Assembly (NCBI RefSeq): GCF_009834785.1
Contig: NZ_WUYX01000044.1
Span: forward strand, 1 to 64,000
Length of the DNA stretch: 64,000 nt
Source: Natronorubrum halalkaliphilum
Lineage (GTDB): Archaea > Halobacteriota > Halobacteria > Halobacteriales > Natrialbaceae
Direction: 5' to 3'
Shown here one piece after another: positions 474 to 7,903 of the stretch (position 1 is the first letter of the stretch; every line of letters begins with the position of its first letter). The translations under genes were made by a program, and so were the position numbers. The notes beneath the pieces were generated by a model. The model did no database searches. It was not told the DNA's origin and was given only the letters and a program-made list of their open reading frames with translations.

Positions 474-1925
474 ATGAGCGAGGAGGACGCCGACAGCGAC
501 GAGAACGACCGGAAGACGGGAGTTGACGACTTCGAGGCGGTCACTGACGCGATTCACGACCGTATCAAACCCGACGCCGAGGAACGCGAACGCCTCCGTG
601 AGGTCGCCGACCGTCTCCTCGAGCGCGCCGAGGCCGCCGCGACCGACCGCTGCCCTACCGCGGACGTCCTACAGGCCGGCTCGACGGCCAGAGGAACGTG
701 GATCAGCGGCGACCGCGATATCGACATCTTCGTCCGCTTTCCACCCGATCTCGATCGCAAAACCCTCGAGCGATACGGGCTCGAAGTCGGCCACGAAACC
801 CTCCCCGAGGGCCACGAGGAGTACGCCGAACATCCCTACGTCAAGGGAACCGTCGAGGGATTCGATATCGATGTCGTCCCCTGCTTTCGCCTCGAGTCGG
901 CCACCGAGATCCGCTCGGCCGTCGATCGCACGCCGTTTCACACCAAGTATCTCGAGGCGCGACTCGACGACGAGCTCGCCGCCGACGTTCGACTCACCAA
1001 GCAGTTCCTGAAGGGAATCGGAGCGTACGGTAGCGACCTCCGAACGCGGGGCTTCAGCGGTTACCTCACCGAGCTGCTCGTCTGCGAGTACGGCGGTTTC
1101 AGACCGCTGCTCGAAGCCGCGGCAAACTGGCATCCACAGGTCGAACTCGATCCGGAGGACCACGGCAAGGAACGCAAAACAGGGTCGACGTCTCGGGGAG
1201 AGAGTGTCGACGATGTCGCCCTCTCGTTCGACGACCCGCTCGTAGTTATCGACCCCACCGATCCCGAGCGAAACGTCGCCGCCGTCTGTTCGGCAGATAA
1301 CGTCGCCCGGTTTCAACACTACGCGCGCGCACTCCTCGAAGAACCCCATATCGAACTGTTCGAACCCGAAATCCCAGACCCACTGACCGCGGCCGACCTC
1401 CGCGAACATCTCGAGCGTCGCGGCACCACGCCCGTCGCCATCCGATTCGACGCACCTGACCTCGTGGAGGATCAGCTCTATCCCCAGCTACAGAAGTCGC
1501 TCGACGGCATCACGATGGGGCTCGACGACCGCGGTTTCGACGTCTTCCGGGCGACGGCGGTCGCCGACGACACCGCGGTGATCCTCGTCGAACTCGCCGT
1601 CAGCGAACGCCCCGCCGTCGAGCGCCACGACGGCCCACCGGTCCACGTTCGGAGTCACGCCGAGGGATTCTACGAGTCCTACGCCGACGACCCCGACGCC
1701 TACGGTCCCTTCATCGACGGCGACCGGTACGTCACCGAACGACCTCGCGAGTTCACCACGGCCGAAGCCTTCCTCGAGAGCGACCGGCTCTTCGACGTCG
1801 GGCTTGGTGCCCACATCGAGACGGGACTCGAAGACGAGTACACGGTCCTGGTCGGCGACGAGATCGCGGCGCTACTCGAGGAGTTCGGCCAAGAACTCGC
1901 TCGGTATTTCGATCCCACTCCCTGA
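474..1925 (+). CDS. cca: CCA-adding enzyme (archaeal class I tRNA nucleotidyltransferase)
   Basis: Adds or repairs the 3' CCA of tRNAs using CTP and ATP. The 483-residue protein has the nucleotidyltransferase signature GS(x)nDxD near residues 69-84 (GSTARGTW, then DRDIDIF; likely catalytic D82 and D84). The third acid sits in GFDIDVVP near residues 130-132. The archaeal helical and tail domains follow. The length is normal for the archaeal class I family. The ATG at 474 follows a short leader. The downstream spacer holds an 82-bp palindromic repeat shared with the convergent deacetylase gene. The assignment is firm. Confidence 0.95.
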   Translation: MSEEDADSDENDRKTGVDDFEAVTDAIHDRIKPDAEERERLREVADRLLERAEAAATDRCPTADVLQAGSTARGTWISGDRDIDIFVRFPPDLDRKTLERYGLEVGHETLPEGHEEYAEHPYVKGTVEGFDIDVVPCFRLESATEIRSAVDRTPFHTKYLEARLDDELAADVRLTKQFLKGIGAYGSDLRTRGFSGYLTELLVCEYGGFRPLLEAAANWHPQVELDPEDHGKERKTGSTSRGESVDDVALSFDDPLVVIDPTDPERNVAAVCSADNVARFQHYARALLEEPHIELFEPEIPDPLTAADLREHLERRGTTPVAIRFDAPDLVEDQLYPQLQKSLDGITMGLDDRGFDVFRATAVADDTAVILVELAVSERPAVERHDGPPVHVRSHAEGFYESYADDPDAYGPFIDGDRYVTERPREFTTAEAFLESDRLFDVGLGAHIETGLEDEYTVLVGDEIAALLEEFGQELARYFDPTP

Positions 1926-1946
1926 ACTGGCGACCGATACAGTCTG

Positions 1947-2028
1947 ATACGGTTTACTGTAGTCAATTACCGCCGATCACCGACCACGTCCCTGGTGATC
2001 GGCGGTAAATAGTTACAGCAATCCGTAT
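1947..2028. repeat. 82-bp palindromic repeat, copy 1 (class A)
   Basis: An imperfect palindrome with ends ATACGGTTTACTGTAGTCA and TTACAGCAATCCGTAT. The perfect inner stem is TACCGCCGATCACC/GGTGATCGGCGGTA around an 11-base loop. It lies between the convergent genes cca and the deacetylase. The inner stem is nearly identical to the copies at 18549 and 47926. It may act as a two-way terminator or be a small non-autonomous mobile repeat. Confidence 0.85.
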
Positions 2029-2132
2029 GAATCGAGCCAGAACAAGACCGAGCGATCGGCTGTGACAGTCGAATCCGGAATCAAAGAGCAAAACCGGGAG
2101 GGACAGAGAGTTGAGAATCGAGAACCGAAAGA

Positions 2133-3173
2133 TCAGCCGTCGAGATCCAGATCCAACTCGAGATCCAGCCCGTGTTCGTCGGCAACGTCCGAAATCGCCG
2201 ACGCCGCTTTCGCCTCACACTCCGAGTCCGGTTCGATCGGCTCGCGGCCGTCGAACGTCTCGTGGACGATCGCGACGCTGTCGGCGAGGACGTCCAGTCC
2301 GTACCCGCCCTCGAGGATGAACGCGAGCGCCGCATCGGTGTCGTCGGCGAACGTCCGGAGTCGGTCGGTCATCAGGGCGTAAGCCTCCGTCGACAGCCGA
2401 ACCCGCGAGATCGGATCGTGGCGGTGGGCGTCGAAACCCGCGCTGACGAGCAGCAGGTCGGGATCGAACGCGCTAAGCGCGCCGATGATCGGCCCCTCGA
2501 TCGCCGCGAGATACTCCCGATCACTGGTCCCGGCCGGCAACGGAACGTTCATCGTCGTTCCCGCGCCGTCACCCGTTCCGGTCTCGTCGACGGCACCGGT
2601 GCCGGGGTAGAGACCCTGCTCGTGAATCGAGACGAAGAAGACGTCATCGCGGTCGTAAAAGATGTCCTGCGTACCGTTGCCGTGGTGGACGTCCCAGTCA
2701 ACGATCGCGACCCGATCGACATCGTACGCATCCGCATCGAGTGCGTGTTGGGCGGCGACCGCCGCATTGTTCACGAAGCAAAACCCCATTGCATCGTCGT
2801 ACACCGCGTGATGTCCCGGCGGCCGTCCGATCGAGAACGGCGTATCGCGACCGGTTGCACCCTCGAGAGCCGCCTCAGTGGCCCAGCAGGCGAGGCCGGC
2901 GCTGTGACGGACCGCATCCCAGGTCTCCTCGACGGCAGTCGTGTCGGGATCCCAGTTGCCACCACCGTCGGCACAGAACGTTTCGACGGATTCGATGTAC
3001 TCCCGCTCGTGGACGGCCGCGAGCGTGTCGATTTCGCAGGGGTCGGCCTCGACGTACTCGACGCCGTGTTTCCTTTTCAATCGCTCCCGAATGGCGCGCA
3101 ACCGGTCCGGCGACTCTGGATGGCGCGAACCGGGATCGTGTGCGAGACAGACCTCGCTGTAGCCAAACTGCAT
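2133..3173 (-). CDS. hdaI: Histone deacetylase family protein
   Basis: A Zn-dependent arginase-fold deacetylase of 346 residues. Visible motifs are HDPGSRHPESPDRL (residues 12-25), GRPPGHHA (H121/H122, catalytic His pair), VDWDVHHGNGTQ (D161 and H163, zinc ligands), SAGFDAH (third metal ligand and start of the active-site rim), and EGGYG. I start it at the ATG at 3173, one base after the histone stop; a longer upstream frame only overlaps the histone gene. Homologues remove acetyl groups from lysines of protein or small-molecule substrates. The operon with a histone makes chromatin or other acetylated proteins plausible targets. The acidic tail after residue 320 is typical of halophiles. Confidence 0.9.
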   Translation of the reverse strand: MQFGYSEVCLAHDPGSRHPESPDRLRAIRERLKRKHGVEYVEADPCEIDTLAAVHEREYIESVETFCADGGGNWDPDTTAVEETWDAVRHSAGLACWATEAALEGATGRDTPFSIGRPPGHHAVYDDAMGFCFVNNAAVAAQHALDADAYDVDRVAIVDWDVHHGNGTQDIFYDRDDVFFVSIHEQGLYPGTGAVDETGTGDGAGTTMNVPLPAGTSDREYLAAIEGPIIGALSAFDPDLLLVSAGFDAHRHDPISRVRLSTEAYALMTDRLRTFADDTDAALAFILEGGYGLDVLADSVAIVHETFDGREPIEPDSECEAKAASAISDVADEHGLDLELDLDLDG

Positions 3174-3174
3174 C

Positions 3175-3606
3175 TCACTCAAACAACGAGAAGTACGTCT
3201 CGATGTCGTCGTCTGTGATCGTCCGGCGGTCAGCGTGGTGGGCGAGAATCGCCGCCGCCCGAGCGACGTTATCCGCGTAGTCCTCGAGAATGTCTGCGAG
3301 GGCGACGCGAGCGTCCATCGAGACGCGGTACCGATCGTCGATTTCCAGCCTGGCGATACGGTCGACCGGCGCAACCGGCAACTCGAGGTCGTTTTTGTTG
3401 ACGACTGTGCCGACGCCGAAATCCTCCGCCATTAGCGTCTTCCGACCGTCTTCGCTCGCTCGCTCGGCGGCATCGATGGCGAGCTCGCTTCCGTGTTCTT
3501 GAATCCGTGTTGCAAGTTCCTTCGACGCGTCGGCACTCACCCGAAGTTCGCCCGCGTTTCGCCGGATGATCGTATCCACCGGGGCGAACGGGAGTTCGAC
3601 GTTCAT
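3175..3606 (-). CDS. hstA: Archaeal histone, fused double histone fold
   Basis: The 143-residue protein carries two consecutive histone folds, roughly residues 1-68 and 73-143. Each begins with an (F/V)APVDxIxR(x)nA pattern (LPFAPVDTIIRR and LPVAPVDRIARL). Haloarchaea encode such fused dimers instead of separate subunits. It is predicted to bind and bend DNA or act as a global regulator. It lies 66 bp after rpa2 and 1 bp before the deacetylase on the same strand, so the three are very probably co-transcribed. No long lysine-rich tail is present. Confidence 0.95.
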   Translation of the reverse strand: MNVELPFAPVDTIIRRNAGELRVSADASKELATRIQEHGSELAIDAAERASEDGRKTLMAEDFGVGTVVNKNDLELPVAPVDRIARLEIDDRYRVSMDARVALADILEDYADNVARAAAILAHHADRRTITDDDIETYFSLFE

Positions 3607-3672
3607 ACCATGATACGCGAAGCAAACGCCCTTAACGCTTTTCCTAGGTGCTCGATGAGGTTGCTCGCGGCG

Positions 3673-5142
3673 TCAGAACACGTCGTTTGCCTCGAGACGA
3701 CCGTCACGGACGATCCCTCGTGCGGTTACCTCTTCTCCGAGACCGACGTCGGCGTGGGTCTCCACGCTCATCGTCGTCTCGCCGTCGTCGAGAACGACGG
3801 GATCGCCGGCCTGAACAACGACGCCCGTGAACTCGATCTCTTCGCCGTCGGCCGGTTCGTCCGTGTCGGTACTCGTGTCGCCCGAGCTGTCCGTTTCGGT
3901 TTCCGCAGCGTCTTCGTCTTCGTCTTCGTCTTCGTTTCCATCGTCGTCCCCGCTTCCGGAAAACGCCGATAGCCCGGCGTTCTCGTCGCTCGAGTCGTCC
4001 GCGTCGGCCGCAGCAGCCCCAGCCCCCTCGGCGGATTCGGACTGGAGCACCGTGATCGTCGACTGCCAGCCGGCAGACGCCTCGAGGTCGTCCTGCCAGC
4101 CGTCCTGAATTTCGACGTCGCCGAGTGCGACCTCGTCGCCCGGGCCGATGTCGAGGTCCGCTTTGTCACCCCAGAGCGCCACACGGATGTCGTCGGTCGC
4201 GTCCTGGACGCGAATGTTCCGTACCTGTCCCTCGGAGCCGTCGTCGCGATCGAAGGTTCGTTTCGGATCCGCCGAGCGGACGACGCCCGCGAGATCGACC
4301 GTCTGGCCGATCTCGATAGCTTCGATCGGCGTACTCTCCGGGACGTACTCGACCGTTTCGTCGACCTCCTCGACGGCGCCGCGATTGCCGACGTGAAGTT
4401 CCAGATTGCCGTCGCGCTCCTTGACGTAGCCGTCGATCACTTCGACGGTGGTATCGGGCTCGATTTCGGTGGCCAGATCGGCCTGCTCGTCCCACAGCGT
4501 CACGCGGATACGGCCGGTCGAATCGCCGAGTACGAGGTTCGACACCTTCCCTTCGGAGCCGTCGTCGCGGTCGAACGTGCGCACGCTGTCGGTGTCCAAG
4601 ACGAGCCCTACGAGGTTGACGTTCGAAAGGCCCAGCGAGAGGTCCTCGACGGTGTGGGTGTCGGAAACCTTTACCTCGTCAATTTCCTCGTCCGGATCGG
4701 GTTCGACCTCGTCGACGCTGATCTCGACGCCGCTAAAGCCCTCCTTGGGGCGGCCCTTGATCCGCAGCACCTGCCCCTCCTCGAGTTCCTCGATGGCGGC
4801 TTCGGCGTGTTCGTCCCAGAAGGCTGCCCGGACGGAGCCGGTCTCATCGGCGACCTCGACGTTGACGACGCGACCGTCCTCGTCTTCCCCGTCGCGTTCG
4901 AAGGTCCGCACGTCGCCGATGCTGATCACTTTGGCGATAAACTTTGCTTCCTCCATCCCCGGTTCGATATCGGCGATGCCACCGACTTCGCTCTCGCCGA
5001 TTTCGTGTGCGATGAGCATCGCCGCCGTCTCCTCGTCTGCGAGTCCACCCATCTGCTCGACTTTCGCCTCGACGGCCTCGCGAAACTCCTCGAGAGAGAC
5101 GTCGGCCTCGAGGTCTTCATAAACGCCCTCGATGTCGCTCAT
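3673..5142 (-). CDS. rpa2: Single-stranded DNA-binding protein, RPA-like with repeated OB folds
   Basis: The 489-residue protein has an N-terminal helical part, then at least three OB-fold repeats. The repeats share a motif of the type VRTFxRDDGSEGxVxNLxxxDxTGxIRVxLWDEQADL (near residues 80-120, 185-225 and 285-320). An acidic low-complexity linker (about residues 390-440) and a C-terminal OB-like region follow. It matches haloarchaeal replication protein A, which protects ssDNA in replication and repair. I chose the ATG at 5142 (MSDIEG) over an in-frame start 30 bases upstream because family members begin at this point. It leads the operon with the histone and deacetylase genes. Confidence 0.9.
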   Translation of the reverse strand: MSDIEGVYEDLEADVSLEEFREAVEAKVEQMGGLADEETAAMLIAHEIGESEVGGIADIEPGMEEAKFIAKVISIGDVRTFERDGEDEDGRVVNVEVADETGSVRAAFWDEHAEAAIEELEEGQVLRIKGRPKEGFSGVEISVDEVEPDPDEEIDEVKVSDTHTVEDLSLGLSNVNLVGLVLDTDSVRTFDRDDGSEGKVSNLVLGDSTGRIRVTLWDEQADLATEIEPDTTVEVIDGYVKERDGNLELHVGNRGAVEEVDETVEYVPESTPIEAIEIGQTVDLAGVVRSADPKRTFDRDDGSEGQVRNIRVQDATDDIRVALWGDKADLDIGPGDEVALGDVEIQDGWQDDLEASAGWQSTITVLQSESAEGAGAAAADADDSSDENAGLSAFSGSGDDDGNEDEDEDEDAAETETDSSGDTSTDTDEPADGEEIEFTGVVVQAGDPVVLDDGETTMSVETHADVGLGEEVTARGIVRDGRLEANDVF

Positions 5143-5433
5143 TCTATGCTCGTGCATGGGTAGGCTGCGCATAAGCGTTGTCCATTCGGTGTGTTCGTCG
5201 GGGTGTTCGACTCCGTTTCACAGTGGGATGGGGGCTGGGATGGTACCACGCAACCCGCCGCTGGTCCCATCCGTGGAGCCGACGATTGGCGTCCGAACGC
5301 ATACCGCCGCTTGCCCCGGCTCCGTATATAAACCCGAGTGTTAGTCAGCTGGACGGAGGCGGCCGTTGTGGCAGGCGTAGACACGCACGATCGGGGGAGA
5401 ACGGCGGACTGTGGCCGGTTCCTTTCGAAAGGG
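5143..5433. other. Spacer upstream of rpa2
   Basis: No convincing gene. On the minus strand a TATA-like TTTATATA at 5323-5330 could drive rpa2 with a long leader. The short frames here are rich in Cys, Arg and Pro and do not look haloarchaeal. Confidence 0.4.
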
Positions 5434-5441
5434 CTTTAATG
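5434..5441 (+). promoter_or_regulatory. Box A (TATA) promoter of tRNA-Arg
   Basis: CTTTAATG lies 24-31 bases upstream of the tRNA-Arg 5' end, the expected archaeal box A spacing. Confidence 0.6.
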
Positions 5442-5464
5442 TCGACGCGGGTATGAAGAGATGA

Positions 5465-5537
5465 GTCCTGATAGGGTAGTGGACTATCCTCTTGGCTTGC
5501 GGAGCCAGGGACCGGAGTTCAAATCTCCGTCAGGACG
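5465..5537 (+). tRNA. tRNA-Arg (GCG)
   Basis: The cloverleaf has acceptor GTCCTGA/TCAGGAC with discriminator G, D stem GGGT/ATCC, anticodon stem TTGGC/GCCAG around TTGCGGA (anticodon GCG), and T arm CGGAG-TTCAAAT-CTCCG. No CCA is encoded. Its last 21 bases are repeated downstream (see 5538-5850), the usual sign of a tRNA used as an integration site. Confidence 0.93.
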
Positions 5538-5850
5538 TTTCTGTCGACGCCAAACCGCGAGCGGAGCGAGCGGCTGGTGTCGACGAAACTCCGATGCGGA
5601 GATTTGAGCAGACGAGTCGCAGCCCGGGAAGCGAACAAAGTGAGCGACCCGGAACGTCTCGGCGAGTTCAAATCTCCGCCAGGACGCTCACTTATCGCGG
5701 GCGCTTCGCATTGCTCAGCGCCCGCTTTTGGGTTCGGTCCTGACGTGCCTTACGCTCACTTCGTTCGCGTAAGACTCCGTCAGGACGCTTTCACCGATGC
5801 GACAACGCCGAACGTAGCCAGGCGTCCGTGTCGGTGAAAACTCGCACCTT
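5538..5850. repeat. Tandem hairpins and copies of the tRNA-Arg 3' end
   Basis: After the tRNA comes a hairpin (GTTTC-GTCGACGCCA paired with TGGTGTCGACGAAAC, 5538-5589). An inverted fragment of the T arm (5596-5607) follows, and then a direct copy of the last 21 tRNA bases with one change (5666-5686). Next are a GC hairpin GCGGGCGC/GCGCCCGC followed by TTTT (about 5697-5735), a CTTACGC/GCGTAAG hairpin, a third partial tail ending TCAGGACG near 5780, and a TTTCACCGA/TCGGTGAAA hairpin. No coding sequence is visible. It could be a scar of repeated insertions and excisions at attB, or a processing/termination array. Confidence 0.7.
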
Positions 5851-5915
5851 GTACGTCGAGTACCCGAGAACTCCGCAGCGACACCTATTCGGTCTCGAGG
5901 CGAGAACAGTCAGCT

Positions 5916-7378: not shown

Positions 7379-7903
7379 GGGTGAGAGGAGTAAGCCCCCT
7401 TCTGTTCGTCCCGGCATTCGGCTGAGCGTCCGCGCCGTCCGCGGCCAGGCCGCGGGGCGTTCGGGCTACCACGGCACGGACTTGCACCGGTGAGGGTTCG
7501 CCGTTCCATCGATCCTCGGCCGTCTGGGTGTGGTCGGTTACGTCGCCGAGGTTCGGATCCCCGAAGGGAAGAACCGCGCACGCAACCCATGGATTCGAAC
7601 CATGTATCGTTCGAACGACCACACGCCCTCTGCAGGTTAGCTTCCCTTCCTCTCGGTCGGGTTCGCACGCATCATCGGTCGGGCCGAGACGTGTCGTTTC
7701 TGTTCCAGAGCCAGCGGTCTCCCGCTCCGGACTTGCGTCCGGTCACCTGCCCGAACAGGTGGGGGGACTTTCCTCGCGTGCGTTGGGCAACTCGAAGAGT
7801 TGGCCAACGGTAGGAGCGTGATGCATCCCGAAGGGATGGCCACAATGTACGGATGCGACGTCGCCGACGCATCCGCCGCGGCAGCCAGGCTCTCTCTCCC
7901 ACC
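7379..7903 (-). ncRNA. rnpB: RNase P RNA
   Basis: The minus strand contains the universal RNase P core. The 5' conserved block is GAGGAAAGTCC (near 7776), and the archaeal block CTGGAACAGAAACGACACG lies near 7690. The 3' block ACAGAAGGGGGCTTACTCC (about 7386-7404) pairs back to form P4. Helix P1 can form between GGTGGGAG (from 7903) and CTCTCACC (ending 7380), which sets the approximate ends. GC-rich hairpins between them match a haloarchaeal type A RNA of about 520 nt. A TATA-like CTTATTC lies about 23 bases upstream. The RNA processes tRNA 5' ends. End positions are accurate to perhaps 10 bases. Confidence 0.92.

Follow-up and report, generated by a model that had tools for sequence, protein, structure and literature searches.

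In Escherichia coli K-12, an Rfam search of the tyrV/tyrT locus (L325) gives four matches to the RtT repeat RNA (RF00391). Each match starts with GGGGAAGG, an inverted piece, ends with AATCCTTCCCCCACCACCA, the tail of tRNA-Tyr, and carries a hairpin of the CGAGCGNNAGCGAG type inside. RttR, as annotated, starts 8 nt beyond tyrV and stops on the final A of the first tail copy. A covarying helix that frames a tandem GA is ascribed to RtT repeat RNA in a passage of one review (PMC8250186). Archaeal att repeats are usually 40-50 bp in length, and that of a SNJ2 provirus is 13 bp, according to a section of PMC8371274. Here we describe an array of tRNA-tail copies and hairpins behind a tRNA-Arg gene in a stretch of 64,000 nt of Natronorubrum halalkaliphilum DNA, which is called the window below. 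The feature is real, structured and order-wide. We did not find a description of haloarchaeal tRNA-tail units in the open-licence PMC literature.

The array behind tRNA-Arg(GCG)

The last 23 nt of the tRNA-Arg are found again 149 bp downstream with a single change (22/23), and its last 13 nt are found once more without any (13/13). Both downstream copies terminate exactly on the last base of the tRNA. The repeat with its one change, the inverted piece between the copies, the shorter third copy near 5780 and a distinct stem-loop after each direct copy had all been pointed out in an earlier note on this DNA, and all four are borne out (Table 1). Absent from that note is a further inverted piece, GTCCTGACG, which precedes the third copy and pairs with it. 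The plan of a unit is a stem-loop (H), an inverted tail piece (T'), a core hairpin that sets T' against the tail copy T2, and a closing copy, exact or nearly so, of the 3' end of the tRNA. The units in the window are about 149 bp (type A) and about 101 bp (type B) in length.

Table 1. Features of the array behind tRNA-Arg(GCG), in window coordinates
Feature	Position	Strand	Basis
tRNA-Arg, anticodon GCG	5465..5537	+	ARAGORN; Rfam RF00005, 51.1 bits
T1, genuine tRNA 3' tail and reference copy of the repeat	5515..5537	+	
H1, stem-loop adjoining the tRNA 3' end, apical GCGAGCGGAGCGAGC (tandem G.A)	5538..5588	+	fold; compensatory changes in 23 related sequences
T', inverted copy of T loop and T-stem 3' strand, pairs with 5666-5679	5596..5609	+	tracks the upstream tRNA
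Conserved core hairpin, AGTCGCAGC...GAACGTCT, tandem G.A near the tip	5610..5665	+	covariation
T2, second tRNA-tail copy, ends on the last base of the tRNA	5664..5686	+	repeat search
H3, stem-loop after T2	5697..5725	+	fold; covariation
Unit-B hairpin, inverted acceptor strand (5737-5745) closed on T3	5737..5786	+	fold; 24 related sequences
T3, third, shorter tail copy	5775..5787	+	repeat search
H5, stem-loop after T3	5789..5839	+	fold

A chance repeat is ruled out. With up to three mismatches allowed, the 23-mer occurs at two places only in the 64 kb, and its expectation in shuffled sequence is 0.00. The 13-mer with up to one mismatch occurs at four places vs. 0.57 expected, the fourth of which (34560) is unrelated. 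The 301 nt 3' of the tRNA fold with a z-score of -6.26, and 0/100 shuffles were equally good. At the gathering thresholds, Rfam identified only tRNA and RNase P in the window and no other known family. A cmscan of 5400-5900 up to E=10 gave microRNA and mascRNA matches that are weak and far below the cut-offs. No tail copy or inverted piece was found in the 304 bp available behind the second tRNA of the window, a tRNA-Asn (305-378). Genes for a CCA-adding enzyme (474-1925) and an RPA-like OB-fold protein (3673-5172), as well as the archaeal RNase P RNA (7385-7793), are located within about 5 kb of the array, a proximity that is possibly a coincidence.

Covariation, fit to the tRNA, and spread

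The core helix was compared in 57 copies, in which 93.6% of the pair cells are formed. Two-sided changes occur at 8 of its 17 pairs, in 75 cells vs. 17.9 in shuffles, and none of 500 shuffles scored as high by any measure. As a control, core structures slid out of register pair only 22-39%. The two tandem G.A columns are kept in 55/57 and 57/57 copies while the adjoining pairs change together. Within the core, 11 G.U pairs stand against 2 A.C pairs, an excess that favors an RNA of the tRNA strand. H1 (23 Arg-GCG sequences) and unit B (24 Arg-GCG sequences) also show many compensatory change types in alignments made by script with RNAalifold and without a shuffle control, and covariation is present in H3. 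In the single sequence with a C for an A in the tRNA tail, the facing base of unit B has changed in step.

By comparison of sequences, the tail and the inverted piece vary with the tRNA that precedes them. A T-loop anchor could be placed in 89 of 120 copies, and 82 copies with both an anchor and a tRNA were used. T2 agrees with its own tRNA at 10.9 of 12 positions and with other isoacceptors at 5.3, and it extends to the last tRNA base in 65/82. T' is complementary to its own tRNA at 4.15 of 6 positions vs. 2.71 for other isoacceptors, for which the largest of 2000 draws was 3.07. The 52 copies left when the Arg-GCG loci are omitted give 3.75 vs. 2.71 for T' and 11.2 vs. 5.6 for T2. Divided by segment, the match is 0.973 in the T stem of T2 and 0.861 in its acceptor strand, while the pairing of T' reaches 0.749. 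Thus, of the two partners the tail is the more strictly conserved, and pairing alone is no explanation for exact tails. Gene conversion or recombination could be the reason for them. At one position of the T'/T2 pairing only A-U (49) and G.U (40) are found, whereas elsewhere G.U and A.C are about equally frequent.

To follow the units across genomes we used R1, a covariance model of the inverted-tail/core/tail hairpin built from 14 copies. R1 matches 228/243 Halobacteriales genomes. In a sample of 157 genomes from the phylum, 24 are positive, all of them Halobacteriales, and no positive genome was found outside this order; at least two Halobacteriales genomes in the sample are negative. A DNA search with the window array as query matched 60/61 genomes, and the T'-core-T2 part of the query also matched places behind Phe, Val, Ser and Gly tRNAs. 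The exact core 21-mer is found on 22 GTDB contigs, 19 of them haloarchaeal, where the upstream tRNAs include those for Leu, Ile, Tyr, Lys, Asp, Val and Arg. On the three bacterial contigs (L056, L071, L074) the 21-mer has no tRNA and no tail around it, and these matches look like chance.

In genomes G000, G131 and G168, 58/63 R1 matches (E<=0.001) lie on the strand of a tRNA gene and 28-420 bp behind its 3' end, although the source copies of R1 were all tRNA-adjacent and included tail letters, so the model favors such places. The remaining five comprise one on a contig that lacks tRNAs, two at a contig start, and two whose nearest tRNA is 9 and 76 kb away. An R1 match (E<=0.01) lies within 700 bp of 10/42, 16/44 and 24/41 tRNAs in the three genomes, respectively. 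A model-free check of 40 of the 41 tRNAs of G168 was made by looking for the last 20 nt of each tRNA, with up to four mismatches, within about 600 bp downstream. A tail copy follows 22/40 tRNAs, perfect (20/20) in 17 of the 22, and an inverted T-arm copy follows 21 of the 40. The same check on 28 tRNAs of G267, from the same phylum, gave two direct matches, both of them second tRNA genes, and no inverted ones. We infer G267 to be a non-halophile because it falls outside Halobacteriales and has a lower G+C (0.53). Among the loci examined there are 120 distinct copies, of which 110 are preceded within 1500 bp by a tRNA on their strand, and these tRNAs represent 26 isoacceptors. The first observation was correct and understated, and the array is no private scar. 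The earlier note had named an array found unchanged behind other tRNA genes as evidence against its readings, and on this point the outcome is mixed. Units do stand behind other tRNA genes with no inserted element, but their tails and inverted pieces are altered to fit each tRNA.

Possible origins of the units

The anatomy, the covarying hairpins, their fit to the tRNA, the restriction to Halobacteriales in the samples searched, and the presence or absence of units at tail boundaries can all be read from the sequences. We give an even chance to the array being a set of structured trailer RNA units whose 3' ends copy the 3' end of the tRNA. The array would be transcribed by read-through from the tRNA promoter, and the tRNA 3'-end enzymes would cut after the genuine tail and after the tail copies. 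The products would be unit-sized RNAs, about 100-150 nt long and ending like a tRNA at the 3' side, in line with what the annotation of E. coli RttR suggests. T' may sequester the copied T arm, so that it would not compete with the real tail in tRNA folding. T2 of unit A has its T arm paired with T' and is therefore no obvious tRNase Z substrate. Such RNAs would most likely regulate the maturation of tRNA 3' ends or an enzyme that binds these ends. An RNA array processed by tRNA enzymes was one of two readings offered at the outset, and it is the best fit to the covarying hairpins, the sense orientation behind 26 isoacceptors and the E. coli tyrT parallel, with the processing step one that we infer.

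The other initial reading was that the array consists of insertion scars. Each unit would represent the fused ends of an integrated element whose middle was deleted, and the tail copies would be att repeats. The same tRNA is a real integrase target. In G004, a genome of the same genus, an element of roughly 4.3 kb (L033, about 850-5190) is integrated in tRNA-Arg(GCG). It encodes a 391-aa tyrosine integrase (PF00589, 1.1e-13) and is flanked by the tRNA on one side and by a 3' tRNA half of about 49 nt on the other, beyond which the displaced array follows. G001 (L034) carries a related remnant 3' of a unit-B tail. Units are present or absent exactly at tail boundaries, and loss of DNA between short direct repeats, including prophage-derived partial tRNA duplications, is known in haloarchaea, as a passage of PMC3119063 describes. 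Against this, the G004 att repeat reaches back to the anticodon arm (~49 nt), whereas the unit tail starts only at the T loop (~21 nt). Random deletion would not leave units of ~100-150 bp that share their covarying hairpins across 26 isoacceptors, and the window has no integrase gene between the tRNA and the tail copies. The unit is also absent from all viral records searched: phage records held 0 copies, the exact core 21-mer was found in 0 stretches of IMG/VR, and R1 gave 0 matches on 80 of the 92 stretches found with a looser core pattern. Compact, structurally conserved, order-wide and unrecovered from viral records, the units weaken the case for insertion scars, and we consider it unlikely.

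A search for plasmid copies resulted in no clear copy of the unit and one partial match, of 68 nt at 80% identity, on a Natrinema thermotolerans megaplasmid (CP031304.1, 457636-457705; L324). The match is core-like and has no annotated gene under it.

The composition of the array varies between genomes. At Arg-GCG, units of type A (usually about 149 bp, in the order H1-T'-core-tail) mostly alternate with those of type B (about 101 bp), and the orders A-B, B-A-B, A-B-A-B and B alone were observed. In nine distinct Arg loci T1 runs straight into unit B, i.e., into the sequence that lies 3' of T2 in G000; unit A is therefore absent exactly at the tail boundaries. At the Phe locus, tail copies are found in 18/29 loci of relatives, with differing H and core modules. 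In G001 (L034, about 2110-2350) a unit-B sequence is partly repeated in tandem, three times. There is also a second unit type at tRNA-Phe (L031 1120-1270, L203, L204, L214, L221), which consists of the tRNA 3' half from the anticodon arm on and has two tandem-G.A hairpins inside its T stem.

Such exact presence and absence at nine Arg loci, together with the rapid turnover at Phe, would be expected of cassette-like mobile units, i.e., small hairpin DNA elements that enter tRNA 3' ends, either through recombination between tails or with duplication of the tail as their target. Loss by tail-tail recombination accounts equally well for the presence and absence of units, and deletion between short direct repeats would explain the losses. 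We did not find a recombinase linked to the units. Recent spread within genomes was not seen either: cores behind different tRNAs are as alike within genomes as between them (0.600 vs. 0.600), and across genomes cores behind the same tRNA are only slightly more alike than cores behind different tRNAs (0.653 vs. 0.600). Cassettes are distinctly unlikely as the main explanation. Both integration scars and cassette mobility, the main rivals, may nevertheless have contributed to the origin of the feature.

Every tail in the window has a stem-loop behind it, and T-rich stretches are frequent both there and at the Phe loci, as would be the case if the hairpins merely halted read-through from strong tRNA promoters; the exact tail copies, inverted tails and conserved core motif are left unexplained by such terminators, which makes this very improbable. 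The least probable explanation is that spare tails serve as decoys that draw integrases away from the tRNA gene, for which the G001 remnant abutting a unit-B tail, as if integrated there, is one case only, and which leaves T' and the core unexplained.

Relation to known systems

More than half of the tRNA genes scored in G168 (22/40) are followed by exact or near-exact copies of their own ends, and the hairpins in which they lie show covariation wherever this was examined. If the units are RNAs, as in the trailer reading, the puzzling repeat of E. coli would turn out to be one case of a widespread phenomenon, open to study by haloarchaeal genetics. If they are DNA cassettes, they would represent a new type of mobile element bound to tRNA genes. 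On either view, tail repeats downstream of haloarchaeal tRNAs call for further evidence before they are taken for provirus ends. More tentatively, and with the balance somewhat against it, there may be an order-wide haloarchaeal class of tRNA-tail RNAs, i.e., trailers of a large share of the tRNA genes that are processed by the tRNA 3'-end machinery and bear tRNA-type 3' ends. The E. coli tyrT repeat would then be either a lone bacterial member of the class or its convergent twin. If true, this would be a general and overlooked tRNA-linked regulatory layer in two domains of life.

The R and L boxes of integron attC sites are GTTRRRY and RYYYAAC. Compared by eye, these boxes are not found in the units, in which the tail has GTTCAAA and T' has TTTGAGC/TTTGAAC. 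Haloarchaeal elements integrated in tRNA genes by a tyrosine integrase (SNJ2, HF1-type) resemble the units in that they use tRNA 3' ends and leave 3' tail copies; they bring an integrase and kilobases of DNA, however, and the units carry neither. The PATEs/MITEs of haloarchaea are likewise small, noncoding and palindrome-bearing, but they are not described as tRNA-bound or as having tRNA-tail repeats in the portion of PMC3119063 that deals with them. A dispersed insertion outside tRNA genes, as of a PATE or MITE, was not what we found, with 58/63 matches behind tRNAs and no tRNA near the other five in the assembly.

The closest known system is the E. coli tyrT repeat RNA, which follows the same plan by anatomy without the units belonging to its family by model. 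In E. coli, too, the units lie behind a tRNA gene, whose 3' end is copied at the end of every unit (19 nt with CCA). The E. coli inverted piece GGGGAAGGAT pairs with the tail ATCCTTCCCC, as the haloarchaeal T' pairs with its tail copy, and a tandem G.A hairpin lies inside both, in the form CGAGCGNNAGCGAG in E. coli. The two differ in that the window units are not matched by the RF00391 model (cmscan of 5400-5900, up to E=10) and stand behind tRNA-Arg, not tRNA-Tyr. E. coli has one tRNA (Tyr) and one repeat type, whereas haloarchaea have several unit types behind 26 isoacceptors. The likeness between the haloarchaeal units and RtT may reflect either homology or convergence.
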